Below, piece by piece: positions 1 through 30,408 of a stretch of 64,000 bases of DNA. The position numbers and the translations under genes are program-made. The stretch covers positions 282,161,999 through 282,225,998 of the forward strand of contig CM041776.1 in NCBI GenBank assembly GCA_023374045.1, given 5' to 3'. The notes beneath the pieces are model-generated. The model searched no databases. It was not told the DNA's origin and was given only the letters and a program-made list of their open reading frames with translations. Each line of letters starts with the position of its first letter. The stretch's first letter is position 1. This DNA is from Limonium bicolor (taxonomy: Eukaryota > Streptophyta > Magnoliopsida > Caryophyllales > Plumbaginaceae).

Positions 1-593
1 AGATTGTGAATTACGAAGGAAACAGGGGTTCTTGTGAATTTTCCCAAAATAATTTATTTTTGGGGGACATGGAATGTCTACCACCTTCAATAAAACATTT
101 TCTTCCTGATTAGACATCATTGTCCCTCTTCCAAAATAAAAAATCTAAGGCGGGGCACTAGGACAGTAACATCCCTTGTCGCAGTCTAGACTTCTTTAGG
201 CAGGGCGTTAGGGTGATAACCTCCCTAAACTGCAGCCTAGAATTTTACAAGGCGGGGTGCTAGGGATGTGACTGTCCTTCCTAGTTGTAGTGGGATTTTA
301 GAATCGTTAACTCCCTTCTACTCGATTTCAATGTTTTCGGTTTTCAATTTTTTAAAACCCGGGAGTTAGAGACGTTATTATATGACCGAGGACATCTCAT
401 TCATGGTGTCTCTTAAACCCTAGTTTCGACATAAATACATTGCCCAACTTTCGAGTCAAGGAACATACCATTAATTAAGTGCCGCACTCGAGGGGGCACA
501 TAGGGTGTTCCCTCTAGATCACCCGCCCTTTCAACAACAATGATTTTCCTCAACCATCTTCGAACCTTGAACCCTAAAAACCCGGGATCTCTC
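1..593 (+). mobile_element. Left part of Tat/Ogre-like LTR, split by E1
   Basis: Non-coding sequence that continues at 14998 across the E1 insertion: both sides carry the CTCTC target duplication. The assignment to a Tat/Ogre-type LTR comes from the continuation, which holds the family's characteristic repeat motifs, a primer-binding-site-like sequence and a decayed gag. No ORF here is credible. The LTR start lies outside the window, so its length is unknown. Confidence 0.5.
140..300 (+). repeat. Imperfect tandem repeat, about 53-bp period, 3 units
   Basis: Three diverged units each have a core like GGCGGGGCGCTAGGG, followed by a TCCCT-containing segment and a CCTAGA-like stretch. They begin near 147, 198 and 250. 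Internal repeats are common in LTR U3 regions; the role here is unknown. Confidence 0.5.
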
Positions 594-2782
594 TGAAATA
601 CCAACCTAATATATTGTTAACACTTAAATATGGTGTATTAAGACTAAAAAGAGTCTTAGAAACATTAGTAAACAAATTTAAACAAAAGAAAACATAAAAT
701 GTGCTTTAAAGTCAAGAAGAGCCAAAATGTGCTCTAAGCTTGGGATAAACTTGGTTAAGACCTAATGAACTTACCAAGACCTCATTTATACACTAATGAA
801 CATATTAACCAATTACCAAAGAAAACCAAGCTTGAAAACAAGTTTAAACACAAAATGTGCTTTAAGGAGTCTTAAAGCACATTTTTGAAAAATTGTCTTG
901 TAAATGAGTTTTGAGTGGCTAGATGTCCATCATTACTCTTAAATATATGTGTACTATATAATATCACATTTGGATGTCTATATCAATGGGAAATCAAAAA
1001 TTTCACTTCTATGTGCCTTGTTTTCATGAATAGTGATTTTTATAAGCTATTTTGTAACATATGTTTGTATAAGTAATTAAATTGACAAAAGACTATATTA
1101 CCCCTAAGTATAATGGGGGCCGGTTTTCTTAAGTGTGGTGACTCACCACTCTCTTATTAATGTATTAAGTAAGTAATGATAAGTAAATAAACTACTTTTT
1201 ACTTTTACTACAAATATCTTCAAAAAGTAATTCTATCTCATTCTCTCATTTCCTTCCTTGTTCACACGGCTCCACACCTCTCTTCTTCCTTCTCTTCCAC
1301 GGTAATACCACACCACCTCCATTAAACCTCTTCTTTGATCTCTTGTAAAATCTAGCTCACTTGTTCAAATCAAAAACAAACACCACCATCTCTTCCTCTC
1401 ATCAAGCTCTTCATTTCTATCTTCTTAAAATTCCAAGACCACCATTTCGGTGCCATGGAGTTCCACCATTGAAGGAGCTTGAGCTTGTATTTTTACATAT
1501 TGTTACTCTCCTTTGCTTCTAGGTAAGGAATCTCAAATAAAAACTTCATTTCCTTCATGTTTTTGTGTAACCGAAAATACATATTGAAGGAGCTCTTTGT
1601 GTGACTTGTTCTAGCTTCATTCCAACTCTTCATGGACTAGGTGGAGTCCTCTCTTGTTAGATATTCAAACTCTCTTCAAAGAGCAAGGTAAAACAACTAC
1701 ATTAATGTTTTTGAAACAATGTAAAATTAGGGTTTACAATGAGATGAAGCTTATAGCTTGAATACTCATTATAATGTTTGTATATTGTTTAGAACTTGTC
1801 AAAGAATCAAATACCTTACCGGTTTTTAAAGGAAACAAGAAAGAAGTTGTTTGGAAAAGAGGTAAATCTACTAACCTAATGTTGTTTAATGCCTTAGGAG
1901 AAATGAGCTTATAATGCTTGTTAAAACTACCTAAAGAGCAAATGGTGAATGACTTAGTAAGTGTTCTCAAGAGCTTAGTAAAAGGCATATGTGTTGTTGA
2001 GTGTATTTGCAGGTCAAAGGCAAATATATTGTGGAAATTCAGTGTTTATGATTTATGCATCTTAAGGGCCTAAGAGCCATGTCATTTAAGGGCCTAAGTG
2101 CCATGCAATTTAAATTATGCACTATATTGTGATGTAGTGCTTTGTGAGTGGAGTTTGTGTATAATAAGTGCTTGATGGATTTTTAGTGTTCTTGGTTGTT
2201 TGTTGGTAAAACAATGTGTTTTGGTTTAGTAATGTTCTAGGAGAACCTATGTCGAAATTTAGGTAATAAATGAGAAGTCTAAGAGTTAAAATGAGTTTGA
2301 TAAGTTAAGAGGTTTTAGATGGTTAAGTGTTGTTCTTGTGTAAGAAACATGCATTAAGGTGATTTATGTGAGAAGGACTTAGGCATGATCTTGAGGTTTT
2401 AGTATGTACCAAAGTCATTTTGGACTTAGGTAAAGACTTAGGCAAACTTTGGTAAATAAAGAAAGTGTAAACTTGGAAAAGAACTTCAAGAATGACATAA
2501 GGAGTTAGTTGTGGAAATAATGCTTAAGATGATGTTAAGATGAGGAAAAGCATTTTGGGATAGTAGTTATCATAGGTGAGAAACACCATTTAGAAACCTA
2601 GTAAAAATGTTGTAAGTGTTAAGGAATTTTACAAGAAATAAGTAAAGGCTTAAGGAATTAGAAAATGAGTTTCATGGATGTTGTATGTGGATATAAGGGT
2701 ACCAAATGTTGTTAGGAAGCATTAAGAGGCTTTAGGAGAAGTTTGGTGAAGATTTGACAAAGTTTGGGTAAGTTTAGAGGAC

Positions 2783-3240
2783 GTCCGACCCAGGGGTCCG
2801 ACCCAGTTTGGGTCGGACAGCCTCTGTTAGACGTTAGGAATGTTCTGTAATGGTCCGACCCAAAAGGGTGGGTCGGACATGGGTCGGACGGTCATATTTC
2901 AAAGGAGGGAAAATGTTTCTGGAATGGTCCGACCCAGTCGAGTGAGTCGGACGTGGGTCGGACGGGCATGTTTATAAGGCGGTAAAATGTTCTGTAATGG
3001 TCCGACCCAGAAGGGTGGGTCGGACATGGGTCGGACATGTATGTTCTGAGGTCGATGAATTCTCTGTAATGGTCCGACCCAGTCGAGTGAGTCGGACGTG
3101 GGTCGGACATGTCTCTGGAATGGTCCGACCCAGAAGGTTGGGTCGGACATGGGTCGGACATGGTAAGGTTCTTCAGACCCGAAAACCACTGGAAGGGTCC
3201 GACCCAGTTGTGGGTCGGACGGTGGGTCGGACATACCAAA
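2783..3240 (+). repeat. Tandem hairpin repeats of about 73 bp in E1 5' LTR
   Basis: Units start with GGTCCGACCCAG and close with GGGTCGGAC, usually twice, so each can fold on itself. Unit starts at about 2853, 2926, 2999, 3072 and 3196 are 73 nt apart (the last after 124 nt), with a shorter unit at 3123. The same block is at 13199-13654 in the 3' LTR. Units alternate between two spacer variants (AGAAGGGTG and AGTCGAGTGAG). Short ORFs predicted here are by-products of the repeat. Confidence 0.9.
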
Positions 3241-4172
3241 ACTTGTAAAAAAAAAACAGAAAAGAATGTGACTTATGTAGTTAACCCTAGGGTGTATAAT
3301 GAAGGTAACCTAGGGTAAGTAGACATTAAACATGTCATACAACATGTTAAACTTAGTAAGTTTGGAGTTAATAATAATTAACCGACGTTATTAACATGTA
3401 TAGGAGTGACCTACGGTGGAAACAAATCAAGGCAAGGACCAAGGTATGGTTTTCTTGCAGTCTGTTGTCTACCGGTTTACACCGGCTTGTGTGTTGTATG
3501 TTTTTCTGTGTGTTTATGACGTTATAAGACTTAAACATGTAATGAGTTTACAGTTGTTCATATTATTGTGATGTTATGTTGTGACTCATTTCCCTTGTGT
3601 GTGTCTAACATGACTTACCACCTATTGTGTGTTGGTTGTTAAGTTCCACTATGAACTTCTAACAAGTGTTAACTGGGAAGTGAGGAATCCGGTTGTCCGG
3701 TCATGCATGTAAGTTAAGAGTAGATATCTGAATCAGATTCGACTCTTATGTTGTTAAGATTGTTCTCCTTAATTTGGCGTTCGATCTCCCGCTAGCTTCT
3801 TCCAAAGCTTACCTATTCTGACTTATGATCGGTTTAGTGGGAACATGTGTTTGTGTGGTGTGTTCGGGTCACTAAATCCGAACCATCTGTGACTTAAGTT
3901 ACTCGTTCGTCTAACAGAACGGTAATGAGTGTGTTTAACGAGCTTAACATGAGAGTGAATCACTCTCTAGGCTCTTGTGTTTTTGACCCTTGTGGTTTGT
4001 TATTGTGGAACGAAGATCCACTGTGTATGTGTTTGTGTGTGCACTATTGTGCTATGCCACATGTTATGTTATGTTATGTATATAAATGAATGCCATGTTA
4101 TCATGACAATTAGTTGCGCGTATCCCGGTAGCCGATGGGCTGCGCGTTACCATACCAGCCAAGGGTTGCTGA

Positions 4173-4184
4173 CCCCCTCGGGGG
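4173..4184 (+). promoter_or_regulatory. CCCC-CTCG-GGGG hairpin in E1 LTR
   Basis: A 4-bp C/G stem closed by a CTCG loop, in the context GCTGA before the stem. The E2 LTR has the equivalent stem with a TTCG loop in the same GCTGA context (29948-29959). A C(UUCG)G loop is a known exceptionally stable RNA tetraloop. A role in RNA folding, packaging or 3' processing is inference. Confidence 0.5.
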
Positions 4185-4453
4185 ATCCATATTTCTTATA
4201 CTGCAGGATGAGGATCGAAGAAGCGGAGTGGCTCTAGATCCTAGGAGTGATTTACTTTTGTATACTTTTGGGATGATGGCCCGGGATGCGCCTGTGCTCC
4301 CGTGGCGTTATATATTTGGTTGTTGCAGTTAACAGTGATGTGATACAGTGAAGAATATGTAAACACTCGGTATTGTATATGATGTATTTATGGTTTAGTT
4401 TTATGCTCGGGAGTCTGATCATCAGACCGGTACACTTGTATTTATTCTGCCTT

Positions 4454-4475
4454 GTCAACCACGTGGGTGGTTGAC
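4454..4475 (+). promoter_or_regulatory. Conserved 9-bp hairpin near the E1 5' LTR end
   Basis: Perfect stem with arms GTCAACCAC and GTGGTTGAC around a GTGG loop, 88 nt before the LTR end. The E2 LTR has the same loop and a 9-bp stem differing by three compensatory base-pair changes (30280-30301). That pattern is expected of a structure kept by selection in RNA or DNA. Confidence 0.65.
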
Positions 4476-4568
4476 GGCGTTGTAGCACCGAAGCGTTAGT
4501 TACTGTTTAGTTTATTTTTCCGCTGCGATTTCATTTAGTGTTGTGCGTAGTAGGGGTGTTACAAAAAG

Positions 4569-4580
4569 TGGTATCAGAGC
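4569..4580 (+). other. E1 primer binding site (initiator Met-tRNA)
   Basis: TGGTATCAGAGC lies 5 nt after the LTR end and is the usual plant PBS complementary to the 3' end of initiator Met-tRNA. It overlaps a 9-bp inverted repeat (4573-4596, arms ATCAGAGCG and CGCTCTGAT). Confidence 0.92.
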
Positions 4581-4779
4581 GAAGTATCGCTCTGATGACT
4601 AGAATACCGAGCTTAGGAATATACCGAGTTAGGAAACCTAACTACAGTTACTTCAGTGAACATTATGGAAAGGTTAACCACTAACTAAGTGTGGAGATAC
4701 CTTATTGTCGGGAAGCGTTACAACCGTTGGACCGATAAGTGTGCAAGCATATTGCTAATGAATATTCATGTGAATACAG

Positions 4780-6240
4780 ATGGCAGGTAGACCGCGTGGT
4801 AGAGGCCGCGGAAGGTACTAGTGATGGGGACCAGGGCGAGAACACTACGGCTCAGGTTATGGCTGAGGCTGTAGCAGCCGCTGTGGCCCAGATGGTACCC
4901 CAGCTTGTAGCTGCGTTACAGCAGGGGCAGATGCCCGGAGTTCAACCACCACCGCCACCGCCACGAGAGACCAATTGGGTCAAGGCATTGGCAGACTTGA
5001 GACCCCCTTCATTTCATGGGGAGACCGACCCACGTAAGCTGGAGGCGTACATCTCCGAGTTGGAGACCGCCTACGAGACCTTGGCTGTACCCGCAGAGGC
5101 TAAGGTCCGTCTTGCCGCTTACTACCTGAAGGGTTCGGCACAAAACTGGTGGAAGCTTGTGAGAGAGGACCGGATGGCGGATCCTCAGTTTGGATGGAGG
5201 GAGTACACGGCTCTGCTGCGAGCCAAATACTACCCTGTGCACGTTCAAGAGGCCAAGCGCCTTGAGCTGGATAGTCTGAGGCAGGGGGACAAGGTGTCGG
5301 TTGATGAGTATTACACTGCCTTCACCGGCCTTGTCCACCTGTTACCGGACCTGGGATACTCGAACCGGGTGCTGGTAAACCGTTTCTATAACGGTCTCAG
5401 CCACCGTCTTCGCTATGGGATGGGGCCAGCTGAGTATACTACCTTGCAGGTAATTTAAATAAAGAGTGATGTGAATATGTGTAGTCTACAAGTGAGTATT
5501 AATGTGAGTTTGTGAGTATGTATTGCGGGGCATGACTGACCATCCTAAATTCAGGAGTGCTATCATGCCGCTGCTAAGGTGGAGATCACCGTCCGTCTGA
5601 GGGACGAGGAGAATGCGCACAAGCGCAAGGCCACGAGCGAGGGCCAGAGTCCGCAGGGGTACGGGGGAGGAAAGAAGAAGAAGAAACCTTATCCCCAGCC
5701 CCAGAAGAGTCAGCACCAGGGTGACAAGGGCCAAGCCCAAACCACCACAGCTGAGGAGCCACTGAAGCTCACATATGCTTATGCGGCGAAGCCCCTACGC
5801 TCTTACCCACCTAAGGGTAATTATTTAATCTTGTGTGATAAGTGAAGTGTATGTTGATAAGTTGTAGAACAAGTACTGAGTGTGTATTGTGTTAGCAGCT
5901 AGCACGGGCTCTGGACCGGAGCGCCACTATTACTGTAAGTGGTGCAATGGAGACCACCCCGGCAAGGACTGCAAGGGAAATGAGGTGCAGTGTCGCTACT
6001 GCGAGAAGTGGGGTCACCGTGACCACGAGTGTTACCGGAACCCCAACAGCAGAGTTAACAAGCCCAGAGGGCAGTGGAAGGGTAAGGCCACAGCAGCTAT
6101 TGATGGCCCGAAGACGGCTAACCAGCCACCCACAGATCAGAGGCACACTGATTCCCAGAAGGGGAAGGGGTCGGGACCTAGCAAGGCCGCCCTGAATGTG
6201 GTGGACCGGTCTGAGGCGCCAGGGCCCTCTTCTAGACCAG
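4780..6240 (+). CDS. gag: E1 Gag (three putative exons)
   Basis: Encodes the capsid/nucleocapsid polyprotein that packages element RNA. The start is chosen at ATG 4780, which opens a short Arg/Gly-rich stretch typical of Tekay Gag; a one-base shift near 4812 is needed to enter the long frame. Exon 4780-5449 holds the retrotransposon Gag domain (conserved PPSFHGETDPRKLEAYI, WW at the capsid core). Exon 5555-5816 is Lys- and Gln-rich. Exon 5899-6240 has two zinc knuckles, CKWCNGDHPGKDC and CRYCEKWGHRDHEC. The in-frame stops between the exons fall in GT-AG segments whose removal preserves phase (phase 0, then 1, then 1 into the protease). Gag-pol is expected to be one frame in this lineage. The splicing is inferred, not observed. 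Confidence 0.8.
5450..5554 (+). other. Putative intron 1 in E1 gag
   Basis: Donor CAG|GTAATT, acceptor AAATTCAG|GAG, 105 nt, phase 0. It contains the stop that ends the first gag frame. The coding sense resumes exactly at the acceptor. There is a branch-like CTAA just upstream of the acceptor. Inferred from sequence only. Confidence 0.6.
5817..5898 (+). other. Putative intron 2 in E1 gag
   Basis: Donor AAGG|GTAATT, acceptor GTTAGCAG|CT, 82 nt, phase 1. It contains the stop of the Lys-rich frame. Removal brings the zinc-knuckle exon into frame. The short length is within the plant intron range. Confidence 0.58.
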
Positions 6241-7305
6241 GTACCGCCTAAACTGTTGAATGTAATAAGTGATTGCATACCGCATTTCATGCATGTGTGT
6301 ATATGAGTCCAAGATTATCATGTAAGTAAAGAGTTAAAGTATAGTGTGAAAGACACCTAATTAGATAATTCTAAACTTAAAGGAACCTTCAATATATGTT
6401 ATCCAATCCCACCCACACCAAACCCTGAAGAAACCACCATCAACATCACCGACTTTCCAATGGAGCAATGTCAGGTTATCCAGCCAGGTATGATACTTTT
6501 AAATGGATACCTGACACCGGAAGCACAAATCCATGTCATCAGACGATGCGACGAACTTGGAGCTAAACCTGGAGGTTTCTACACACCTGAATATCCGAAC
6601 GGATCAAGAATGCAATTGAAGATGATGTGCATGGGTAAGGACTGGAACCCTTACACCAAGTCATATCAAGAAGTGCGAGCTGAAGATGGAGCAACAGTAC
6701 CAAGTATACCTGAGGAGTTCCGTGCGGTCGTTAATCACGCCGTGGGAATTGCTCAACAAGTTGAAACGGATTCAATTCCAAATGTGGAAGCAGATTTGTG
6801 TATTGTGAACTTCTACCAGAAAGGTGGACGGTTAGGTTTACACCAAGATAAGGACGAGTCACCCGAGTCTCTAAGTAAGGGAGTACCCGTGGTGTCTTGG
6901 TCCATTGGTGATACCGCAGTGTTTGTGTATGGCGAGCAGAAGCGTGCTGATCTCGCAAGGAAGTTAATACTAAAGTCAGGAGATGTGTTAGTTATGGGTG
7001 GGCAGTCAAGGATGCTATACCATGGCATCAGGAAGATCAAACTGAATACCGCACCGTCGGCAGTGATCAATGCCACACACATGAAACCCGGACGTTTGAA
7101 TTTGACCTTCAGACAATTCTAAAGCCTTGTATAATTCTGTAATGTGTTAAGCCAGTATATGTTAAGGAAGTTATGTATGTGTTAAGTTATATCAACCATG
7201 TAAACCAACAATGTTGTAAAGAGAAGTGTTAATGAATAAAGTGGAGTTATTGAAGTATATCAACCGTGTTGTTACCCAGTACTTATTAGTTTGCCAATGA
7301 ATTAG
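6241..7305 (+). other. Putative intron 3 enclosing the AlkB ORF
   Basis: Donor GACCAG|GTACCG, acceptor GAATTAG|GCTGTG, 1065 nt, phase 1 on both sides, so the zinc-knuckle part of Gag would join the protease segment in frame. The whole AlkB ORF lies inside, on the same strand, with AT-rich flanks (6241-6380 and 7123-7305). An AATAAA-like signal occurs near 7235. The alternative is that the insert simply separates gag from pol and the splice-like signals are coincidental. Three phase-consistent GT-AG pairs in a row argue against that. Confidence 0.55.
6460..7122 (+). CDS. AlkB/ALKBH1-family Fe(II)/2OG dioxygenase inside E1
   Basis: Predicted oxidative demethylase of alkylated nucleic acid, using Fe(II), O2 and 2-oxoglutarate. 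The 220-residue ORF is uninterrupted. Visible features are the nucleotide-recognition part with GGFYTPEY (39-46) and LKMMCMGKDWNP (53-64), NFY (117-119), the HxD motif H128-Q-D130 in LGLHQDKDE, the distal iron ligand H188 in LYHGIRK, and the RxxxxxR 2-oxoglutarate motif R212-R218 in GRLNLTFRQF. The fold order and the KMMCMGK/HQDKDE blocks resemble plant ALKBH1-type proteins, but the protein is shorter, lacking an N-terminal extension. ALKBH1-type host genes normally contain introns; this copy has none, which suggests capture through mRNA. The frame stays open upstream from about 6351, so a longer or Gag-fused form is possible. The substrate (RNA or DNA, which methyl mark) cannot be told from sequence. 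Confidence 0.93.
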   Translation: MEQCQVIQPGMILLNGYLTPEAQIHVIRRCDELGAKPGGFYTPEYPNGSRMQLKMMCMGKDWNPYTKSYQEVRAEDGATVPSIPEEFRAVVNHAVGIAQQVETDSIPNVEADLCIVNFYQKGGRLGLHQDKDESPESLSKGVPVVSWSIGDTAVFVYGEQKRADLARKLILKSGDVLVMGGQSRMLYHGIRKIKLNTAPSAVINATHMKPGRLNLTFRQF

Positions 7306-10300
7306 GCTGTGCACTCGGAACGGGAGGTACACTGAGTGTCTGCAATGAGGCAGAAGCCGGCAAGAGCGGCACAATCCTCACCGGTACCTTTCCAGTGAAT
7401 GGCGTGGATGCATCGATCTTGTTCGACTCTGGAGCCTCACACACATTTATTTCGCTATCTTTTGCGAAGAGGCTGGGGTTAGATGGAGATGAGATGCCAG
7501 ACTTCTTGGTCACTCTCCCATCGAAAGAGCGGATCAGGTGTACCCGCTACCACCGAGATGCTGTTGTACAATCAGAGGTGAAGAGTTTCCGATCGACTTG
7601 ATAGAGTTCGACGGACTTGGATTTGATGTGATTGTCGGGATGAACTGGTTGGAGCGGTACAAGGGCAGAATCCTGTGTGCCGAGCATCGACTGCTTCTTC
7701 GGAGTCCATCTGGGGTTACCATATCATACCGCCAGAGGCCCAGGGAGCCTTCGACTCAGATCATCACCGCCATGGCCATGTATCGTGAGTTACGACGAGG
7801 GAGTGATGTATACCTCTGCTATGTCCAGGACATAGAGAGAGACCCTGAGTTTAGCCCAGATGTGCCGGTAGTGTCGGAGTTTCCTGATGTATTTCCTAAG
7901 GAACTGCCGGGCATGCCGCCAGCACGAGAGGTTGAGTTTGAGATCGACTTAGTTCCGGGCACTGGACCCATTGCGAAAGCACCTTATCGTATGGCTCCAG
8001 CAGAGATGACAGAGCTCAAGGAGCAGCTGAGAGACCTACTTGACAAGGGCTTTATCCGCCCTAGTGTTTCACCATGGGGAGCGCCGGTCCTCTTCGTGAA
8101 GAAGAAGGACGGTAGCCTCCGCCTGTGTATTGATTATCGGGAGCTGAATGCTGTTACGGTGAAGAACCGTTACCCTTTACCACGCATCGACGATCTATTT
8201 GATCAGCTGAGGGGAGCATCAGTATTCTCCAAGATAGACCTACGTTCCGGATACCATCAGATTGCCATCCGTGACAGTGATATCGAAAAGACAGCATTCA
8301 GAATTAGGTATGGGCATTATTCACAGTTATGCCGTTTGGCTTATCAAATGCACCAGCAAGTTCATGGACTTAATGAACCGTTTGTTCCAAGATCAGTTGG
8401 ACAAGTCAGTGGTAGTCTTCATCGATGATATTCTTGTGTATTCTAAATCAAGAGGTGAGCACGAAAGCCACCTGAGAAATGTGTTACAAACATTGAGGAG
8501 GAATCAGTTGTATGCAAAGTTTTCGAAATGTGAATTTTGGTTGAACCAAGTATCCTTCCTTGGACATGTGATTTCTGAGGCCGGGATCGCTGTTGATCCG
8601 GCAAAGATAGATGCAGTGCGCACCTGGCCTAGGCCGAAGACAGTTACCGATATCAGGAGCTTCCTCGGTCTGGCAGGTTATTATAGGAGGTTTGTGAAGG
8701 ACTTCTCCAGTGTCTCGAAGCCGATGACTTCCTTAATGAAGAAGGATGCACCATTCGAGTGGACAGTCGACTGTGAGAGTTCTTTCACGAGTCTCAAGGA
8801 TGCTCTGACATCTGCACCAGTCCTGACTATACCAGACGGTCCAGATGGTTTTGAGGTCTACTGCGACGCATCAGGCAGAGGTATGGGTTGTGTATTGATG
8901 CAGCACGGGAAGGTCGTAGCATACGCCTCCCGTCAGCTGAAGAAGCATGAGGAGAACTACCCTACCCACGACTTAGAATTGGGTGCCATTGTCTTCGCAT
9001 TGAAGATATGGCGACATTATTTGTATGGGGTAAGTGTGACATTTTTCTGACCACAAAAGCTTAAAGTACTTGTTCACTCAGAAAGAGTTGAACATGAGGC
9101 AAAGAAGGTGGGTTGAATTTCTGAATGACTACGATATTAATCTGCAATATAAAGAGGGTAAGGCAAATGTGGTAGCTGACGCATGAGTCGCCGAGCACAC
9201 TCTCTCCATTCGCTAGTCTCTCATACTGGCTTGGTTGAAGAGGTGCGGAGTGCTCAGATGACGGATCAGTATATGCTGGAGATCCGGCAGAAGCTTATTG
9301 ACGGCACATTCGAGGGTCAGAAGTACGACTTCAGACTCCACGATGATGACCTGATTAGGCTGAATGGCCGATTGTGTATACCTAGGAGTAGCGCTGAGTT
9401 GAAGGAGCGCATATTGAGTGAATCCCATTGTTCTACTACTTCGATTCACCCCGGAGCTTCAAAGATGTATAAGAGTATGAAAAGGTATTTTTGGTGGACT
9501 GGAATGAAAAAGATGTAAGTGATTATGTGTTGAGGTGTCTCACTTGCCAGAAGGTCAAGTTTGAGCACCGACGGCCTGGTGGTATGGTACAGCCAATGCC
9601 AGTGCCTGAGTGGAAGTTCCATGATATCTCCATGGACTTTGTAGTAGGGCTTCGCCTGCAAGGGGAGGTCTGAATATGATATGGGTTGTAGTTGACCGAC
9701 TGACCAAAGTGGCCCGTTCATTCCGATGAAGGACACTTGGAAAGTGGCAAGATTGGCAGAACTCTTTGATAAAGAAATTGTAAGACATCATGGTGTACCG
9801 AAAACGATTGTATCTGACAGAGATACCAGATTCTTATCCAGATATTGGAAGTCTACACGAGAGGCATTGGGTACTGAACTGAAATTGAGTACAGCGTTTC
9901 ACCCACAGACCGATGGTCAGAGTGAGCGCACCATCCAGACACTTGAGGATATGCTACGTGCTTGTGCACTTGACTTTCAGACCAGCTGGATTGATAAGTT
10001 ACATCTGATCGAGTTAGTTACAACAACAGTTACCACGCTTCGATCAAGATGTCTCCCTTCCAGGCCTTGTACGGTAGACTATGCCGCACGCCATTATGCT
10101 GGGATGAGTCAAGTGAGACGGTCATTATAGGACCAGAGTATCTTGAACAAGTCCAGGCAGAAGTTCGCCAGATCCGGGCTAACATGAAGGCAGCTCAGGA
10201 TAGACAGAAGTCGTACGCAGATGTGCGCAGACGTGACCTGGAGTTCGCCGTGGGCGATCAAGTATTTTTGAGAGTATCCCCCATGAAGGGAGTATTTCGT

Positions 10301-10669
10301 TTTGGCCAGAAGGGCAAGTTGAGCCCAAAATATGTGGGGCCTTATGTTGTGACGGAGCGGATCGGCCCGGTAGCCTATAGACTAGACCTACCCGCCGAGC
10401 TGGGCAAGGTACATGATGTATTTCATGTGTCCCAGTTGAAGAAGTATATGTCTCATCCGTCTCAGTGCTTCAGCCTGAAAGGCTAACCTTAGAGCCGACC
10501 TGCGATCAGTGGAGACTCCGGTACGGATTCTGGATACTAAGACTCGAGACACTCGCCATAAGTCTGTGAGACTGGTGAAAGTTCTTTGGTCTAACTAGGA
10601 CGTTGAGGAGGCCACTTGGGAGCTGGAAGATAAGATGAGGCGAAGTACCCGTCATTGTTTACTTCTTAG
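7306..10669 (+). CDS. pol: E1 Pol: protease, RT, RNase H, integrase, chromodomain
   Basis: Domains in order: aspartic protease ([10 protein letters not shown] near 7420-7450); RT (about 7920-8650, catalytic [10 protein letters not shown] near 8415); RNase H (about 8860-9180); integrase with the HHCC zinc motif (about 9425-9560) and a D,D,E core (MDF near 9635, SDRDTRF near 9815, [13 protein letters not shown] near 9910); then a chromodomain-like tail (about 10530-10665, VKVLW and EEATWELE). Breaks lie near 7565, 8312, 8350, 9035-9052, 9182, 9510, 9650, 9720, 10015, 10452, 10500 and 10640, plus one TAG at about 10594 in the chromodomain. Most look like loss of one base in a homopolymer, so sequencing or assembly error is a serious possibility. 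If real, this copy is not autonomous. The frame is entered from gag through putative intron 3. Confidence 0.9.
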
Positions 10670-10704
10670 TGCTGATGTGTATAGGTACGGGGCGTACCCC
10701 TTTT

Positions 10705-10717
10705 AAGGGGGGTAGAG
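10705..10717 (+). other. Internal second polypurine tract of E1
   Basis: CCTTTTAAGGGGGGTAGAG lies just after the pol stop and about 285 nt before the 3' LTR. It nearly copies the tract abutting the LTR. E2 has the same motif far from its 3' LTR (34754-34769). It could prime extra plus-strand DNA synthesis, as central polypurine tracts do in other retroelements; this is inference. Confidence 0.55.
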
Positions 10718-10977: not shown

Positions 10978-10989
10978 AAGGGGGGTAGA
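10978..10989 (+). other. E1 3' polypurine tract
   Basis: Purine-rich AAGGGGGTAGAT directly precedes the 3' LTR TGAAATACC. It is preceded by CTTTGAGGGCAAAGTTC, the usual end of chromovirus 3' regions. Confidence 0.85.
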
Positions 10990-11511
10990 TTGAAATACCC
11001 CAAACCTTAATATATTGTATAGACACTTAAATATGGTGTATTAAGACTAAAAAGAGTCTTAGAAACATTAGTAAACAAATTTAAACAAAGAAAACACAAA
11101 ATGTGCTTTAAAGTCAAGAAGAGCCAAAATGTGCTCTAAGCTTGGGATAAACTTGGTTAAGACCTAATGAACTTACCAAGACCTCATTTATACACTAATG
11201 AACATATTTAACCAATTACCAAAGAAAACCAAGCTTGAAAACAAGTTTAAACACAAAATGTGCTTTAAGGAGTCTTAAAGCACATTTTTGAAAAATTGTC
11301 TTGTAAATGAGTTTTGAGTGGCTAGATGTCCATCATTACTCTTAAATTATTGTGTACTATATAATATCACATTTGGATGTCTATATCAATGGGAAATCAA
11401 AAATTTCACTTCTATGTGCCTTTTTTCATGAATAGTGATTTTTATAAGCTATTTGTAACATATGTTTGTTAAGTAATTAAATTGACAAATAAAGACTATA
11501 TTACCCCTAAG

Positions 11512-11518
11512 TATAAAT
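11512..11518 (+). promoter_or_regulatory. Candidate TATA box in E1 LTR
   Basis: TATAAAT, followed about 130-200 nt later by a CT-rich (Y-patch-like) stretch. The 5' LTR copy near 1109 lacks one A. It is consistent with an RNA polymerase II promoter in U3, but the position is unproven. Confidence 0.35.
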
Positions 11519-13198
11519 GGGGGCCGGTTTTCTTAAGTGTGGTGACTCACCACTCTCTTATTAATGTATTAAGTAAGTTGATAAGTAAATAAACTACTTT
11601 TTACTTTTACTACAAATATCTTCAAAAAGTAATTCTATCTCATTCTCTCATTCCTTCCTTGTTCACACGGCTCCACACCTCTCTTCTTCCTTCTCTTCCA
11701 CGGTAATACCACACCACCTCCATTAAACCTCTTCTTTGATCTCTTGTAAAATCTAGCTCACTTGTTCAAATCAAAAACAAACACCACCAATCTCTTTCTC
11801 ATCAAGCTCTTCATTTCTATCTTCTTAAAATTCCAAGACCACCATTTCGGTGCCAAGGAGTTCCACCATTGAAGGAGCTTGAGCTTGTATTTTTACATAT
11901 TGTTACTCTCCTTTGCTTCTAGGTAAGGAATCTCAAATAAAAACTTCATTTCCTTCATGTTTTTGTGGTAACCGAAAATAATATTGAAGGAGCTCTTTGT
12001 GTGACTTTGTTCTAGCTTCATTCCAACTCTTCATGGACTAGGTGGAGTCCTCTCTTGTTAGATATTCAAACTCTCTTCAAAGAGCAAGGTAAAGCAACTA
12101 CATTAATGTTTTTGAAACAATGTAAAATTAGGGTTTACAATGAGATGAAGCTTATAGCTTGAATACTCATTATAATGTTTGTATATTGTTTAGAACTTGC
12201 CAAAGAATCAAATACCATTACCGGTTTTTAAAGGAAACAAGAAAGAAGTTGTTTGGAAAAGGGTAAATCTACTAACCTAATGTTGTTTAATGCCTTAGGA
12301 GAAATGAGCTTATAATGCTTGTTAAAATACCTAAAGAGCAAATGGTGAATGACTTAGTAAGTGTTCTCAAGAGCTTAGTAAAAGGCATATGTGTTGTTGA
12401 GTGTATTTGCAGGTCAAAGGCAAAAATATATTGTGGAAATTCAGTGTTTATGATTTATGCATCTTAAGGGCCTAAGAGCCATGTCATTTAAGGGCCTAAG
12501 TGCCATGCAATTTAAATTATGCACTATATTGTGATGTAGTGCTTTGTGAGTGGAGTTTGTGTATAATAGGTGCTTGATGGATTTTTAGTGTTCTTGGTTG
12601 TTTGTTGGTAAAAACAATGTGTTTTGGTTTAGTAATGTTCTAGGAGAACCTATGTCGAAATTTAGGTAATAAATGAGAAGTCTAAGAGTTAAAATGAGTT
12701 TGATAAGTTAAGAGGTGTTTAGATTGGTTAAGTGTTGTTCTTGTGTAAGAAACATGCATTAAGGTGATTTAAGATGTGAGAAGGACTTAGGCATGATCTT
12801 GAGGTTTTAGTATGTACCAAAGTCATTTTGGACTTAGGTAAAGACTTAGGCAAACTTTGGTAAATAAGGAGAAAGTGTAAACTTGGAAAAGAACTTCATG
12901 AATGACATAAGGAATTAGTTGTGGGAAATAATGCTTAAGAGATGATGTTAAGATGAGGAGAAAGCATTTTGGGATAGTAGTTATCATAGGTGAGAAACAC
13001 CATTTAGAAACCTAGTATAAAATGTTGTAAGTGTTAAGGAATTTTACAAAGAAATAAGTAAAGGCTTAAGGAATTAGAAAATGAGTTTCATGGATGTTGT
13101 ATGTGGATATAAGGGTACCAAATGTTGTTAGGAAGCATTAAGAGGCTTTAGGAAAAGTTTGGTGAAGATTTGACAAAGTTTGGGTAAGTTTAGAGGAC

Positions 13199-13654
13199 GT
13201 CCGACCCAGGGGTCCGACCCAGTTTTGGGTCGGACAGCCTCTGTTAGACGTTAGGAATGTGTTCTGTAATGGTCCGACCCAAAATGGTGGGTCGGACATG
13301 GGTCGGACGGTCATATTTCAAAGGAGGGAAAATGTTTCTGGAATGGTCCGACCCAGTCGAGTGAGTCGGACGTGGGTCGGACGGGCATGTTTATAAGGCG
13401 GTAAAATGTTCTGTAATGGTCCGACCCAGAAGGGTGGGTCGGACATGGGTCGGACGTGTATGTTCTGAGGTCGATGAAATTCTCTGTAATGGTCCGACCC
13501 AGTCGAGTGAGTCGGACGTAAGTCGGACATGTCTCTGGAATGGTCCGACCCAGAAGTTTGGGTCGGACATGGGTCGGACAAGGTGAGGTTCTTCAGACCC
13601 GAAAACCACTGGAAGGGTCCGACCCAGTTGTGGGTCGGACGGTGGGTCGGACAT
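13199..13654 (+). repeat. Tandem hairpin repeats in E1 3' LTR
   Basis: Same GGTCCGACCC/GGGTCGGAC units as in the 5' LTR, about 73-bp spacing, with a few point differences (for example GTAAGTCGGAC near 13517). Confidence 0.9.
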
Positions 13655-14997
13655 ACCAAAACTTGTAAAAAAAAAAAAAGAAAAGAATGTGACTTATGTA
13701 GTTAACCCTAGGGTGTATAATGAAGGTAACCTAGGGTAAGATAGACATTAAAACATGTCATACAAGCATGTTAAATACTTAGTAAGTTTGAAGTTAAATA
13801 AATAATTAACCGACGTTATTATCTATGTATAGGAGTGACCTACGGAGGAAACAAATCAAGGCAAGGACCAAGGTATGGTTTTCTTGCAGTCTGTTGTCTA
13901 CCGGTTTACACCGGCTTGTGTGTTGTATGTTTTTCTGTGTGTTTATGACGTTATAAGACTTAAACATGTAATGAGTTTACAGTTGTTCATATTATTGTGA
14001 TGTTATGTTGTGACTCATTTCCCTTGTGTGTGTTTAACATGACTTACCACCTATTGTGTGTTGGTTGTTAAGTTCCACTATGAACTTCTAACAAGTGTTA
14101 ACTGGGAAGTGAGGAATCCGGTTGCCCGGTCATGCATGTAAGTTAAGAGTAGATATCTGAATCAGATTCGACTCTTATGTTGTTAAGATTGTTCTCCTTA
14201 ATTTGGCGTTCGATCTCCCGCTAGCTTCTTCCAAAGCTTACCTATCCTGACTTATGATCGGTTTAGTGGGAACATGTGTTTGTGTGGTGTGTTCGGGTCA
14301 CTAAATCCGAACCATATGTGACTTAAGTTACTCGTTCGTCTAACAGAACGGTAATGAGTGTGTTTAACGAGCTTAACATGAGAGTGAATCACTCTCTAGG
14401 CTCTTGTGTATTTGACCCCTGTGGTTTGTTATTGTGGAACGAAGATGCACTGTGTATGTGTTGTGTGCTGTGCCCTATTGTTGCTATGCCACATGTTATG
14501 TTATGTTATGTATAAATGAATGCCATGTCATCATGACAATTAGTTGCGCGTATCCCGGTAGCCGATGGGCTGCGCGTTAGCCATACCAGCCAAGGGTTGC
14601 TGACCCCCTCGGGGGATCCATATTTCTTATACTGCAGGATGAGGATCGAAGAAGCGGAGTGGCTCTAGATCCTAGGAAGTGATTTACTTTTGTATACTTT
14701 TGGGATGATGGCCCGGGATGCGCCTGTGCTCCCGTGGCGTTATATATATTTGGTTGTTGCAGTTAACAGTGATGTGATACAGTGAAGAATATAAACACTC
14801 GGTATTGTATATGATGTATTTATGGTTTAGTTTTATGCTCGGGAGTCTGATCATCAGACCGGTACACTTGTATTTATTCTGCCTTGTCAACCACGTGGGT
14901 GGTTGACGGCGTTGTAGCACCGAAGCGTTAGTTACTGTTTAGTTATTCTTTCCGCTGCGATTTCATTTAGTGTTATGTGCGTAGCAGGGGTGTTACA

Positions 14998-16303
14998 CTC
15001 TCCCAAATTTTAATTGCCTCACATTCTCAAATCATCATTCAATACTCCGACTCACCTTAAACTCGAATCATCTCTTGAATTCCAATTTCTTCTAAACTTA
15101 TAAAGCCTCATAGGCCCGAGCTCCTCATAGACTCGAACATCATAATCTTTCCACCATTTTAAGATTCTAACATCTCACTGACCCAAGCGTCTCATAGACC
15201 ATGATATCACATTCCTCCCACTACATGAACATCCCAAATGTCTCATAGACCTGAGTGTCTCACAGACTAACCTCTCAAACATCTCAAAAACCTTTAAAAC
15301 CCTAAATTCTCTAAAAACCCAAAGACCCTGAACTACGTATGATCTGATGTCAACATGGAGTTGAGTACGTAGGCAACCCACACAGGGTGCCACATCAATC
15401 TAAATACCCTTTGCACATAGTCATCTCACCTCCAAACAACCCCATGCACTTCCAACCCTCGATTACCTCAAAAAAATCAATCATCCTAAAAGCCGCGAAC
15501 TACGTAAGGTCTGATCTCAACATGAAGTTGAGTACGTAGGCAAACCATCTAAGCTGCGCCCCCATTCCAATAAAAAAATCTTTCCCCACTCTAAGCCGCT
15601 CTTCATACCTCTCAAAATACTCAAAGCTTATTCGGCTCCCACAAACTTCAAACCATCAAACTCCAAGTCTCGACTATTCACTCAACCTCAGACTTTTCCT
15701 AAATCTTCATTTGAATTTACTAATTCCTCTTCTTCGCACTAGCTTGGCAGAAAGGCTCATCTCATCCACTCTCTTTCTCTCTTCCTATCCTAATCCTATC
15801 CTTGTGGCCCTTTGAAATGAATCTCTCAAAAAAGATTTTGAAAGATGGCAATCCCGACAATGGACGATCTAGGTTTCCTCGGGCACCTATCCGAAGTTGT
15901 GGTTGTTGCCACTGCCAAGGGGTGTAACCCAGTGCGAACCCACATAGAATCTCTGAAATGACCAGATAAGTCCTATCCATAGGCAAAAATCTCTGAGTCA
16001 ATTAATGGTTCTTAGAACTCGATCTTCCTTCCTAGTTATCATAGGTCAAACTAGGTGGCGACTCTAATCAATTTCGCCCTTAGGGTATAAGTCCGCGTAG
16101 AGCCCATCGAGAGCGGGTGTAGTGCATACTTGCACCCCCTTTATGCTTTCTGGGAAAGACAGACGATTTAGTAGGTATTTGAGGGATGCGAGAATAACGG
16201 GTTTTTACCCTCCACAGAATGGCATATCTCTAGGATCTTAGCTTTTCAGTCAAACCATATTTAGATAGACCCCCCTCATACCAAAAGATCACCCTCCACA
16301 GAA
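14998..16303 (+). mobile_element. Tat/Ogre-like LTR, part right of E1
   Basis: Non-coding. It contains two copies of a motif running from GAACTACGTA to GAGTACGTAGGCA (15330-15376 and 15497-15543), a pattern I associate with Tat/Ogre-type element LTR and leader DNA. Near 16045 there is a GGTGGCGACTCTAA segment and a CCGCGTAGAGCCC segment. The exact LTR end is not determined; a CCCTCCACAGAATGGC phrase occurs at about 16207 and again at about 16291. Confidence 0.5.
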
Positions 16304-20446: not shown

Positions 20447-22527
20447 TGTTATGCCCCAGTTTTTTTTTCTATTTTATTTCAGCTTGTTTCAAATTCGCAA
20501 GGGAGCTTTATAACTTTCTAATCTTATTTTAGTGGGATTATGTCATCAACAATATAATTCCTAAGTTAGAAGGAAGGAGGGTTAATCTTGTCCTTTTAGT
20601 CTTCTTACTAATTAGGGAGTTGGAGAGTTAGAAAACTAAATTCATTTTAGATATCCTAACTCTTGTTTTTATTCTCTCTCATTTTTATCTCTCGATCATC
20701 CCTCTCGACAGTTTTCTTCCTTCTCCTCTCAACTCCCGTTCTGCAGAAACTTCCCCTCCCTTGCTCTCTTCTTCACAATTCCGCAATCTTGCAAATTAAT
20801 TAGCCTGATGTCTAGCTTCTGCATTGATGATTTCAATCTGTAGAGTCCGAGTGTGCGTTGCTGTTCGTCGGTCAAGTTCCTTGCTTCTTCCTTCGCTGTT
20901 GGCCCTCTTCGATTTGTGCGAGCATTTGTGATTCGGGTTGTAATTCGAGTGGAGCAGATTGTAGAGTCTACAGAGATGGCTTAGCGTCGGATGTGAGGTA
21001 GGTGGTGAATGGATTCGGTTGTGTGTGTTCGTCCATGGGGATTTCTGATTTTGTTTGTTCTTCGTATATGATTGTTTTAACTCTTTGATTTGGTGATGTT
21101 TTTGGTTGATTTTGATGTGCGTTTGATGCGTTAAAACCCCATGGAAATGTGTTTTCGATTGGTTAATTTGCTACAATAAGTTATGTATGTTTTGTGGGGG
21201 ATTTGTGGCTTGGTTCTGGCTGATTTCCGTAAGTGATTTTGCAGTTTTCGGTATGTCCTAACATGTGTCCGAACATTGAAGTTCGTACATCATACGCCGG
21301 AGGATTTTCAGACTCTCGAATTAGGTCCGAACATGCAAGGTCGGACGCATGTTCGGACCGGCCTTTGTTTTAGCATAACTTGTTCGTTTGAGCTCCGTTT
21401 TGAGTGCCGTTTGCGGCGTTGGATTCCTCTTTTCGAGTACTATCTGATCTAATATGTTTTAGCACATGTATATGTGTACTTTAATTTGAAAGTCTCAGAT
21501 AAGCCTTTGAACTCTGATTTGCTCTGAAAGAGTGTTTGAGCTTCAACGCTTCTGTTTAGTTTTCGTGTTTGCTAGTCAGTATATGACCTTTGTTTTGATA
21601 AGGATTATGATCCGTTTGATGTGCTTTGTCCCTCCGCTCTGTTCTGTTAAAGGCTTCTGCTTCATTTTGTAAAGCTTCTGTTTTGGGACCTAGATGTTTA
21701 GCTTCTGAGCCTTGGATAGTCGGGTCTGGCTGTCCCGTAGCATGCTGCACAGGAATTCCTTCTGTTATTCCCTTGGGTTCCCTTCTGTTCTATCTCTCAG
21801 GGTCCCTTGGATGTTTAGTGACCGACGGGTCCATAGCTGTCTCTACGGCTTCTGTTGTGGGATCTTCGGATCCATAGGACGTTATGTGAGTCCTTCTGAT
21901 GTGTCAGCTGGTGTCTAGTGTCCCACCTCTGTTTTGATTGAGCTTCTGTTATGAACTTCTGAGTTTGTGGTTTGCTTTGTTCTGATTTAAGACTTCTGTT
22001 CGGTTTGCTCAGTTCCTGCTTCTTTGCTCTGATTTGACAAACTTCTATTTCGGTTCTGGCTTGTCACTTCTCTGATTTGAGAAAGCTTCATTCTCTATCT
22101 GATTTATGTTACAACTTCCAGTCTGATTTGCTAAGCTTATGTATTAGTATATGATTATGTTCAGTATATGTTTTGAGCATGCTCAGCTGATGAAGTTTAT
22201 CACCTGCTGAGCTATAGTTTGGCTCACCCCTATTTCCGTCTGATTTACAGGTTTAAGTTTCCTTTGAAGACTCCGCTCTGCTTTCTGCATCGTCCTTCGC
22301 TTTGTATTTGTAGTTGTGGCTTAAGGCCCTTTGTAATTTGATTATGTGACGTAATGTAGTTTGGCTTCTGCATGTAATGTCAGATAGACCTTGTAATCTA
22401 TTTTCAGTTAATAAAAGTGTACTTTGTTTTGTTTTGGGTATCGTATGTTAGAGCCTTGCGTTATTAGGTAATAGATACGCGGCGTGTAACGTCCCTAACT
22501 CCTAGGGTGGTGTTTGGGGTGGTTACA
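20447..22527 (+). repeat. E3 5' LTR (2081 bp)
   Basis: Matches 24255-26101 almost base for base. It ends GGTGGTTACA. It contains one palindromic GGTCCGAACATGC...GCATGTTCGGACC module (21326-21363) resembling the repeat modules of E1 and E2. Short ORFs (for example 21626-21918) sit in the LTR and are not credible genes. Confidence 0.92.
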
Positions 22528-24254: not shown

Positions 24255-26101
24255 TGTTATGCCCCAGTTTTTTTTTCTATTTTATTTCAGCTTGTTTCAA
24301 ATTCGCAAGGGAGCTTTATAACTTTCTAATCTTATTTTAGTGGGATTATGTCGTCAACAATATAATTCCTAAGTTAGAAGGAAGGAGGGTTAATCTTGTC
24401 CTTTTAGTCTTCTTACTAATTAGGGAGTTGGAGAGTTAGAAAACTAAATTCATTTTAGATATCCTAACTCTTGTTTTTATTCTCTCTCATTTTTATTTCT
24501 CGATCATCCCTCTCGACAGTTTTCTTCCTTCTCCTCTCAACTCCCGTTCTGCAGAAACTTCCCCTCCCTTGCTCTCTTCTTCACAATTCCTCAATCTTGC
24601 AAATTAATTAGCCTGATGTCTAGCTTCTGCATTGATGATTCCAATCTGTAGAGTCCGAGTGTGCGTTGCTGTTCGTCGGTCAAGTTCCTTGCTTCTTCCT
24701 TCGCTGTTGGCCCTCTTCGATTTGTGCGAGCATTTGTGATTCGGGATGTAATTCGAGTGGAGCAGATTGTAGAGTCTACAGAGATGGCTTAGCGTCGGAT
24801 GTGAGGTAGGTGGTGAATGGATTCGGTTGTGTGTGTTCGTCCATGGGGATTTCTGATTTTGTTTGTTCTTCGTATATGATTGTTTTAACTCTTTGATTTG
24901 GTGATGTTTTTGGTTGATTTTGATGTGCGTTTGATGCGTTAAAACCCCATGGAAATGTGTTTTCGATTGGTTAATTTGCTACAATAAGTTATGTATGTTT
25001 TGTGGGGGATTTGTGGCTTGGTTCTGGCTGATTTCCGTAAGTGATTTTGCAGTTTTCGGTATGTCCTAACATGTGTCCGAACATTGAAGTTCAGACATCA
25101 TACGCCGGAGGATTTTCAAACTCTCGAATTAGGTCCGAACATGCAAGGTCGGACGCATGTTCGGACCGGCCTTTGTTTTAGCATAACTTGTTCGTTTGAG
25201 CTCCGTTTTGAGTGGCGTTTACGGCGTTGGATTCCTCTTTTCGAGTACTATCTGATCTAATATGTTTTAGCACATGTATATGTGTACTTTAATTTGAAAG
25301 TCTTAGATAAGCCTTTGAACTCTAATTTGCTCTGAAAGAGTGTTTGAGCTTCAACGCTTCTGTTTAGTTTTCGTGTTTGCTAGTCAGTATATGACCTTTG
25401 TTTTGATAAGGATTATGATCCGTTTGATGTGCTTCGTCCCTCCGCTCTGTTCTGTTAAAGGCTTCTGCTTCGTTTTGTAAAGCTTCTGTTTTGGGACCTA
25501 GATGTTTAGCTTCTGAGCCTTGGATAGTCGGGTCTGGCTGTCCCGTAGCATGCTGCGCAGGAATTCCTTCTGTTATTCCCTTGGGTTCCCTTCTGTTCTA
25601 TCTCTCAGGGTCCCTTGGATGTTTAGTGACCGACGGGTCCATAGCTGTCTCTACGGCTTCTGTTGTGGGATCTTCGGATCCATAGGACGTTATGTGAGTC
25701 CTTCTGATGTGTCAGCTGGTGTCTAGTGTCCCACCTCTGTTTTGATTGAGCTTCTGTTATGAACTTCTGAGTTTGTGGTTTGCTTTGTTCTGATTTAAGA
25801 CTTCTGTTCGGTTTGCTCAGTTCCTGCTTCTTTGCTCTGATTTGACAAACTTCTATTTCGGTTCTGGCTTGTCACTTCTCTGATTTGAGAAAGCTTCATT
25901 CTCTATCTGATTTATGTTACAACTTCCAGTCTGATTTGCTAAGCTTATGTATTAGTATATGATTATGTTCAGTATATGTTTTGAGCATGCTCAGCTGATG
26001 AAGTTTATCACCTGCTGAGCTATAGTTTGGCACACCCCTATTTCCGTCTGATTTACAGGTTTAAGTTTCCTTTGAAGACTCCGCTCTGCTTTCTGCATCG
26101 T
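24255..26101 (+). repeat. E3 3' LTR, truncated by E2 insertion
   Basis: Matches 20447-22293 and stops where E2 begins; the last roughly 235 bp of the LTR do not reappear after E2. Confidence 0.92.
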
Positions 26102-28349
26102 TGAAATACCCCGAACTTAAATATAGGGATTAAAATTTATCTCATATGTATTTAAGGGCCTAATGGTACCCAATTAATACTAGTAAGGAAAAATAAATCC
26201 AAAAGAAATAAAGAAACGCTTTAAAAGCGGAAAACGCTAAATAAGCGTTAAATAACCATAGGAGGTACGAGACCTCGGTTAGAGTATTACATGGATTTTG
26301 AAGGTTTAATAAGACCTAAATAATATATGGGAACAAACCCCGAAGAAAACGGATCCTTAAAACGGATTAAAATCACTAACGAACCTTAAAGCGCGTTTTT
26401 CGAGGTAACCGAGAAAACGTGACTTTAAGCGGGTCAAATAGACTCGTAACAATTTTGGTCAACTAAATAATCATTAATACATATTGGTGAGGCTTTAGAA
26501 CCAATAAAAATCAAGAAAACGAGAAATTAGTAAAAACTGTCAAAAACGGGAAGTTGTGGGGTAGAAACATAAATAACACAAACTTATGTGTCCAATATTG
26601 TAAATAAAATTTTAAAACCCCCATGCTCTGTGTGTGTGTCCGATTTTACCTCTCCCTCACACACAATCTCTATTCTCTTTTGTTCACAAGAGACAAAAAC
26701 ATCAAAAAAGCAAAAAGTAACATATTTACTCTCACACTCTCACATTTCTCTCTCTCCTATCCCCATTCTCTATTCCCTCTCACGTGGACCAGCACCCCCC
26801 CTCTCTTTTTTCTCCTTTCTTCTTCCCCATGCGATTTCCATGGTGATTTGAGAGAAACCACACAAAACTCAACTTCTCTCCTTTGTAACTCCCTCAAATC
26901 TCCTCCAAAAATTACAAAACTTGTACCATTGGAATCCTCTCCTCAAGAGCTACATTCCTACCTTTTCAAAAATCGAAAACAACAACTTCCATCTCCATGG
27001 GTATGGAGCATTTGGAGCTCCAAGACCACCATTGGAACCACCTCATTCTCCTTGTTCTATTGAGGTAAAAATCTTCTTGAAACTCCACCTTTTTCTAGCC
27101 TTTGTGGGCAAAACAAAAATTTGACTAAACCCTTGTTTGGTCCCTTGTGTTCTAGCCGATTTTGGCTTTGTTGGAGGAGAGGAAATATTGTTCTTGAGCT
27201 AACCCAAATAGCTCCTACACCCTTGGAAGGTAAAATAAATTCTAAACCCTAAAACCTATATTAGAACATACATAATGGTTAGGGTTAAATTGTGTATTAA
27301 AATGGTGTATTGAAAAGTGTATGTATATGGGTTGTAGTGTAAGATTGTTGAAGTAGCTAAAGCCGGTGGGAAGAGGAAGGAGGAAGAGAGGAGAAGCTTG
27401 AGAAGTAACAAGGTAAAATATACTTGTCCTTGTGTAGTTTTGTATGTGTGTGTGTATAACAGATTTTAGAAGTATAAAATGGTATTGTAAAATGGTAGTG
27501 TGTAGTAGAGTAATGTATAGAGAGGATGTAAGTGTTTTAAACCCTGGAGACAACGTTAAAAACTGTTACAACTAGTTTGGGAATGAATGTTTGAGTGCAG
27601 GAATTTTTAGTAGTGTTTTAGTATTGGTAAATGTGTATGGGAGCTTGTATATTGATGTTGTGTATAAACAGGTGAGATGATGTTAATGTGTGAGAGAAAC
27701 CATGTGGAGAATGTTAATAATATAGGGGAGACTATGTCAAATTTTATCTAGGAATTTGAGGACTTAAGTGTTCAAGATGAGAAAACAACCTAGGTAGTGA
27801 CTAGGTGTATGTGGAGAGTATAATGGGAGCTTTAGTAGCTTGTAACAGATTTGGGTATGATTTGTTAATGGGATGTAATTAGGAAGTGAATGGATGTATT
27901 TTGGATACTAGGAGTAGCATTGGTTGAGGAAGTAATGGAGGTTAGAAGTTGAGTACAAAATCTGTAGCAAGATGCATAAAAATGCATTGGAGAGGTTAGG
28001 AAAAATTAGTGTGTAAGAATTGGTAAAAAGAGTGTTGGACTTGGGTATAGATATTATAGTTGCTTGGAAATGAATTGGAATGGTAAGATGGCATTAGGAG
28101 AGGGAGCTAGGCATGGAGGAAATAAGAACCCAAAATCTGTAGCAACAACCACTTGGAGAAACTATTGTAAGTGTTGGAAAGAAGTGAGGGAAAAATTGTG
28201 TAAGTGGATTGATGGATTTAGTAAAGCATTTGGTGGGTGAACTAAGGCAATTTGAAGGGCCTAGGTAGTGTTTAAACATGTGAGATTACATGTAAGAAGA
28301 TTGGAGAGACAATGGGTAAAGTATGGGACTGAAAACAGAAGTAAAAATG

Positions 28350-28745
28350 CAAATACTGGGACCGACCGGGACTTGCAAGTTCGGTCGAGCCCAGATTTAC
28401 AAAGACGGGAAAGCTTCTGGAATCGACCGGACTTGCGACCGGACTTGCAAGTTCGGTCGGACCAGAAAAATTCTCCCGTCTGGAACCTACTGGAATCGAC
28501 CGGACTTGCGACCGGACATGCAAGTTCGGTCGGCCAGAAAAATTTCCGTCGAGTAAGCTACTGGAATGGACCGACCTTGCGACCGGACTTGCAAGGTCGG
28601 TCGGGCTAAAATTTTTCCGTTAAGTAACTTACTGGAATGGACCGACCTTGGGACCGGACTTGCAAGGTCGGTCGGCCCTGGAATTTTCACCCGATGTAAC
28701 CTACTGACTCGGACCGAACTTGCAAGGTCGGTCGCAAGTTCGGTC
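28350..28745 (+). repeat. Tandem hairpin repeats of 71-73 bp in E2 5' LTR
   Basis: Units run CTGGAATNGACCG...GCAAGNTCGGTCGG, with unit starts near 28417, 28490, 28561, 28632 and 28703. Each unit holds inverted CCGACC/GGTCGG copies and can fold back. Same period and same CTGGAATGG lead-in as the E1 block, with different cores. Confidence 0.88.
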
Positions 28746-30301: not shown

Positions 30302-30408
30302 GGCATTGTATCACCCATTGTATGTAAATATATATCCGCTGCGTGTATCTGATATGTAAGGAGGTTGGAAGGTAAGCACTGTATTAATGGTAGGGGTGTT
30401 ACAAAAAG

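Follow-up and report, generated by a model that had tools for sequence, protein, structure and literature searches.

An ALKBH1-type AlkB gene between gag and protease of a Limonium bicolor Ty3/gypsy retrotransposon, likely under selection and predicted to be spliced onto Gag

We analyzed a window of 64,000 nucleotides from Limonium bicolor (assembly GCA_023374045.1, contig CM041776.1, positions 282,161,999 to 282,225,998), in which a Ty3/gypsy long terminal repeat (LTR) retrotransposon of 14.4 kb contains an AlkB gene of the ALKBH1 type between gag and protease. The reading we favor, with a probability of roughly 0.6, is that this gene has likely been under selection, is predicted to be joined to Gag by splicing, and would demethylate the RNA or single-stranded complementary DNA (cDNA) of the element. 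Positions throughout are those of the window, and the coordinates of all features are collected in Table 1.

Results

An ALKBH1-type AlkB gene framed by a Ty3/gypsy element

The AlkB open reading frame (ORF) was translated without a stop over its 220 codons, and the catalytic residues H128 and D130 (HQD), H188, R212 and R218 all lie where the first-pass annotation of this DNA had placed them. The frame spans the full profile of Pfam PF13532 (positions 1-194 of 194) and scores 166.2 bits where the cut-off is 31.2, and both the HxD...H triad and the RxxxxxR motif are invariant or more than 90% conserved in 46 aligned rows. In sequence and in predicted fold, the protein is closer to ALKBH1 than to ALKBH5, ALKBH2 or FTO, the nearest comparisons being OsALKBH1 and AlkB; the AlkB fold itself is predicted with confidence. 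These scores and the fold, together with a PFDIC-like motif described below, suggest a plant ALKBH1 origin, to which the phylogenetic tree contributes less. The gene may derive from a captured host mRNA, and its base composition fits an origin outside the element: stretch 6383-7122 has 46% GC overall and 46% at third positions, lower than the third-position values of gag exon 1 (62%), gag exon 3 (68%) and the reverse transcriptase piece (54%). Apart from sitting in a retrotransposon, it differs from plant ALKBH1 (rice OsALKBH1, PDB 5xoi/5xeg) in lacking a loop of about nine residues that the aligned plant proteins have, and in its shorter N-terminus.

LTR alignment and the flanking CTCTC repeats confirmed the earlier description of a gene enclosed by LTRs, a primer-binding site (PBS) and a target duplication. 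Both LTRs have identical termini of the TG...CA type, the PBS-like site (which we take to match initiator-Met tRNA) and the polypurine tract (PPT) lie internal to them, and the 5-bp target duplication is found at both flanks. The Pfam pieces of pol follow on the + strand in Ty3/gypsy order (7308-7553, 7538-8428, 8262-9050, 9183-9518 and 10049-10486), which together with the preceding features assigns the element to Ty3/gypsy; Pfam order and reading frames also agree on the position of AlkB between Gag and protease on the same strand. The chromovirus label given earlier is only suggested, as an SH3_Tf2-1 integrase tail was detected and chromodomain-like residues after the integrase were read by eye, but Pfam returned no chromodomain in tail pieces 10479-10595 and 10599-10703. 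Across 3955 aligned sites the LTR pair shows 44 substitutions (23 transitions and 21 transversions; Kimura two-parameter distance 0.0112), and the alignment also contains 48 small gaps, of which 33 are single-base. Each LTR also contains a tandem array of ~73-base units (2839-3234 and 13256-13532), and a further PPT-like sequence, TTTTAAGGGGGGTAG, occurs at 10701-10715, ~270 bases upstream of the PPT adjoining the 3' LTR.

Relatives of the element and likely selection on AlkB

Protein searches with the window AlkB were evaluated for the best 120 of 3189 matches. The closest, P0002, is 70% identical, six relatives fall between 59 and 70%, and no named plant protein among these 120 exceeds 51% identity. 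For the tree, 53 rows were chosen from 121 AlkB proteins (the window's own plus the best 120), of which 27 were counted as plant (25 plant-named rows, with P0008 and P0012 assigned by length) and 19 as other, with P0086 on a very long branch. The window AlkB (P0001) and its six relatives formed one clade (99/94), apart from the 27 plant and 19 other rows. A search with predicted Gag, covering relatives at or below the cut-off of E 1e-10, returned P0122 alone, at 64% identity. P0002 and P0122 each lie on a 26,621-base contig from source ena, from which we infer a single contig holding a second element. Because the nearest protein is only 70% identical and the Gag relative sits on an equal-sized contig, a near-identical, one-off host insertion is not suggested, and the capture is probably not that of a one-off passenger.

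Selection was considered with a neutral simulation of substitutions only (without indels), in which the window ORF drifted once to 70% identity in each of 300 runs. Only two of the 300 runs remained stop-free, one of which also kept all five catalytic residues, which speaks for selection on AlkB and suggests that the gene has likely been kept in a lineage of such elements. An IMG/VR scan with a seven-sequence AlkB alignment (A3) gave 82 matches, three of which were confirmed (L001-L003), with AlkB identities of 32-38%. The reverse transcriptase piece yielded 7960 matches; the best 120 are 53-72% identical, and many of these come from named plants (Cucumis, Solanum, Tanacetum, Nepenthes and others). 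Two reverse transcriptase relatives at 67-69% identity, P0161 and P0185, come from records assigned to Salmonella enterica and Corynebacterium; these bacterial records appear to contain plant DNA.

Predicted splicing of Gag onto AlkB or Pol

Judged from sequence features, gag looks divided by AT-rich introns: both predicted introns have GT-AG ends, contain in-frame stops and have a GC content of 32-35%, compared with 57-60% in the gag blocks. Gag has two candidate starts: the first in-frame ATG is at 4859, and the ATG at 4780 lies in another frame than the rest. Pfam searches gave no match for exon 2, and for exon 3 the sole signal was a sub-threshold PHD (E 0.0016). Translation of P0122 meets a stop right after the same LQ|V junction (LQVI-stop here, LQVLS-stop there), and the first gag splice junction is therefore likely conserved.

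The first-pass annotation started the AlkB gene at ATG 6460. This ORF is intact, but homology already begins 26 codons further upstream, at ~6383. The in-frame translation of the upstream stretch, LDNSKLKGTFNICYP..., extends back to a stop at 6358-6360, contains no ATG, and includes GTFNICYP; this peptide aligns with GPFDICYP in P0003 as well as with PFDIC, a motif of plant ALKBH1. Including it, AlkB would be ~246 aa long rather than 220 aa. The simplest reading predicts one splice donor and two acceptors: joining donor 6241 to acceptor A (6381-6382) would produce Gag-AlkB, and joining it to acceptor B (7304-7305) would produce Gag-Pol, by alternative splicing. Acceptor A stands out because it coincides with the start of AlkB homology.

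Comparison with other AlkB-bearing elements

The first-pass annotation knew of no earlier description of a retrotransposon carrying a gene of this kind. That claim does not hold, as Gypsy elements with AlkB have been published from orchids (PMC9289625). As described there, Phalaenopsis Gypsy_Pa_2799 is likewise a Ty3/gypsy LTR element whose AlkB ORF has metal and 2-oxoglutarate residues, and demethylation of element RNA, as proposed here, was put forward as its role; the orchid AlkB demethylates m6A (N6-methyladenosine) in vitro, and a screen of 121 angiosperm genomes reported the domain in two Phalaenopsis only (PMC9289625). The orchid protein is ALKBH5-like and encoded in a 565-aa ORF2, whereas the window AlkB is a putative demethylase of the ALKBH1 type, 220 aa long. 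Gypsy_Pa_2799 is also larger (25.5 kb), is Tat/Ogre-related and has gag-pol in one ORF with AlkB outside it, in contrast to the predicted intron-split gag of the window element and the place of its AlkB (PMC9289625). Compared by description, the window element therefore falls outside the orchid Gypsy-AlkB lineage, since its AlkB is not ALKBH5-like and its gag-pol is not a single ORF. The ALKBH1 type and the gag-protease position make a capture separate from that in orchids likely.

The predicted splicing resembles the partly spliced intron of Ogre elements, where a subset of transcripts is spliced to reach a downstream frame (PMC6317226). The Ogre intron separates GAG-PROT from RT-RH-INT, and no enzyme gene is named in it in the available part of that source (PMC6317226); in the window element, it is gag and protease that are separated by the last gap, and this gap contains the AlkB exon. 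AlkB domains are also known from plant RNA viruses of the Alphaflexiviridae, Betaflexiviridae and Closteroviridae (PMC9289625). By description, these are likewise captures by a selfish, RNA-copying element, although RNA viruses have no LTRs. The open PMC literature that was searched (most subscription papers lie outside its scope) contained no other ALKBH1-type or chromovirus AlkB retrotransposon, and as far as these searches show, the element is new in its ALKBH1 type, in the gag-protease placement of the gene and in the predicted arrangement of splice sites.

Proposed role of AlkB and alternative explanations

Reverse transcription yields single-stranded DNA within Gag particles, and N1-methyladenosine (m1A) and 3-methylcytidine (m3C) halt reverse transcriptase. 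Gag-AlkB could enter the virus-like particle along with genomic RNA and demethylate its substrate before or during reverse transcription, the most likely substrate being particle RNA or cDNA. Candidate marks would be m1A or m3C blocking reverse transcriptase, m6A marking RNA for sequestration, and N6-methyladenine (6mA) in single-stranded DNA. In DNA that is single-stranded or unpaired, 6mA is a reported substrate of ALKBH1, and the rice protein is reported to act at R-loop regions (PMC10469495). The m6A mark is said to hold the RNA of plant LTR elements in stress granules, from which ALKBH9B is said to release ONSEN (PMC12786077). An enzyme of the ALKBH1 type suggests single-stranded DNA or blocking lesions as targets, and not m6A alone. 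In its complete form, in which one donor and two acceptors yield Gag-Pol or Gag-AlkB and a packaged eraser that arose apart from the orchid case cleans template RNA or nascent single-stranded cDNA, the model is a tentative one. If true, it would represent a second, separate demethylase uptake by a plant Ty3/gypsy lineage, involving another AlkB subfamily and another place in the element, and methyl marks on RNA or DNA would be something over which plants and their retrotransposons have come into conflict repeatedly.

Several observations weigh against the proposal of a selected, Gag-fused AlkB. Splice phase is weak evidence, as seven of the 12 AGs between the donor and the ATG are in AlkB phase (three of these open), and five of the 16 AGs in 7123-7330 are in pol phase (two of these open). 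AAAG, as found in acceptor A, is also a poor plant acceptor. Pol is not intact in this copy, with frame breaks near 7540 and inside the reverse transcriptase and a stop after the integrase tail; because gaps outnumber substitutions between the LTRs, some of the breaks may stem from sequencing errors. Co-location of P0002 and P0122 was deduced from contig size and not seen directly. The AlkB tree is unrooted and leaves the nearer side of the clade unspecified, and the grouping of the clade and plants against the 19 others reached only 90/58. By eye, none of the best 120 of 7960 reverse transcriptase relatives lies on a contig sized like an AlkB contig, and IMG/VR scans with the window AlkB (three pattern matches) and the window Gag (one match) gave no confirmed hit.

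AlkB could alternatively be an element gene translated as a free enzyme from its own ATG at 6460, using unspliced or partly spliced RNA and without fusion to Gag. The complete Pfam coverage from this ATG is in keeping with such an enzyme, as is the prediction that the protein folds well alone, and the orchid AlkB likewise occupies a separate ORF (PMC9289625). We nevertheless consider a free enzyme rather unlikely: similarity to P0003 and to the PFDIC motif of plants extends upstream of ATG 6460 where no in-frame ATG exists, and of the 35 ATGs present in 4564-6459, the leader and predicted exons contain 23.

That the ORF is a passenger without a role in transposition, transduced as host ALKBH1 mRNA by one copy or a small family, appears improbable given that diverged Gag and AlkB relatives lie on equal-sized contigs, that the AlkB clade has seven members and that stop-free frames are rare in the neutral simulation. 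Plant genomes commonly contain genes captured by transposons (672 in rice, 1343 in sorghum; PMC7264820), and the broken pol of this copy would suit a passenger. Just as improbable is that most of the relatives at 59-70% identity are normal host genes from plants with little sequence sampling, and that only this element captured AlkB. All six are on contigs from sources ena or lgn and P0003 has a plant-like N-terminal motif, as this explanation would allow; the shared contig size of P0002 and Gag P0122 argues against it, as does the 51% ceiling on identity to named plant proteins.

Further candidates were rejected. A chance ORF was excluded by the Pfam match and the predicted fold, bacterial contamination by the LTR frame and the plant identity of the top named AlkB matches, and insertion of a host gene after the element by the AlkB-gag phase match and a relative that likely has both genes on one contig.

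Table 1 Features of the AlkB-bearing element in the window
Feature	Position	Strand	Details
Target-site duplication, left	589..593	.	CTCTC
5' LTR	594..4563	+	3970 bp, TGAAATAC...GTGTTACA
PBS-like site	4569..4580	+	TGGTATCAGAGC
Gag exon 1 (capsid)	4739..5449	+	Open frame; Pfam Retrotrans_gag 1.5e-17, Ty3_capsid 4.6e-11
Predicted intron 1	5450..5554	+	CAG|GTAATT...ATTCAG|GA, phase 0, 105 bases, GC 35%
Predicted Gag exon 2	5555..5816	+	Open frame
Predicted intron 2	5817..5898	+	Phase 1, 82 bases, GC 32%
Predicted Gag exon 3	5899..6240	+	Two Cys/His knuckles, CKWCNGDHPGKDC and CRYCEKWGHRDHEC, by eye
Predicted shared splice donor	6241..6242	+	CAG|GTACCG, phase 1
Predicted acceptor A	6381..6382	+	TTAAAG|GA; Gag exon 3 in frame with AlkB
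Predicted AlkB terminal exon	6383..7122	+	N-terminal GTFNICYP, similar to GPFDICYP of P0003 and PFDIC of plant ALKBH1
AlkB ORF from first ATG	6460..7122	+	220 aa, ALKBH1 type
Predicted acceptor B	7304..7305	+	AATTAG|GC; Gag exon 3 in frame with protease
Protease, reverse transcriptase, RNase H, integrase region	7306..10486	+	Frameshifted in this copy; Pfam RVP_2, RVT_1, RT_RNaseH_2, Integrase_H2C2, SH3_Tf2-1
Polypurine tract, PPT-like	10978..10989	+	AAGGGGGGTAGA
3' LTR	10991..14997	+	4007 bp
Target-site duplication, right	14998..15002	.	CTCTC

Other repeats in the window

Downstream of the element, direct repeats of 1847 bases at 20447-22293 and 24255-26101 are 99.1% identical, the second ending where the first member of another direct repeat pair begins (26101-30369 and 36207-40392; 95.6% identical, with internal tandem repeats). 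The minus strand carries a broken LINE-like element at 45824-50832 (RVT_1, RVT_3, DUF4283 and a zinc knuckle) and Copia-like fragments at 61317-63474 (gag_pre-integrs, Pol_BBD and SH3_retrovirus).
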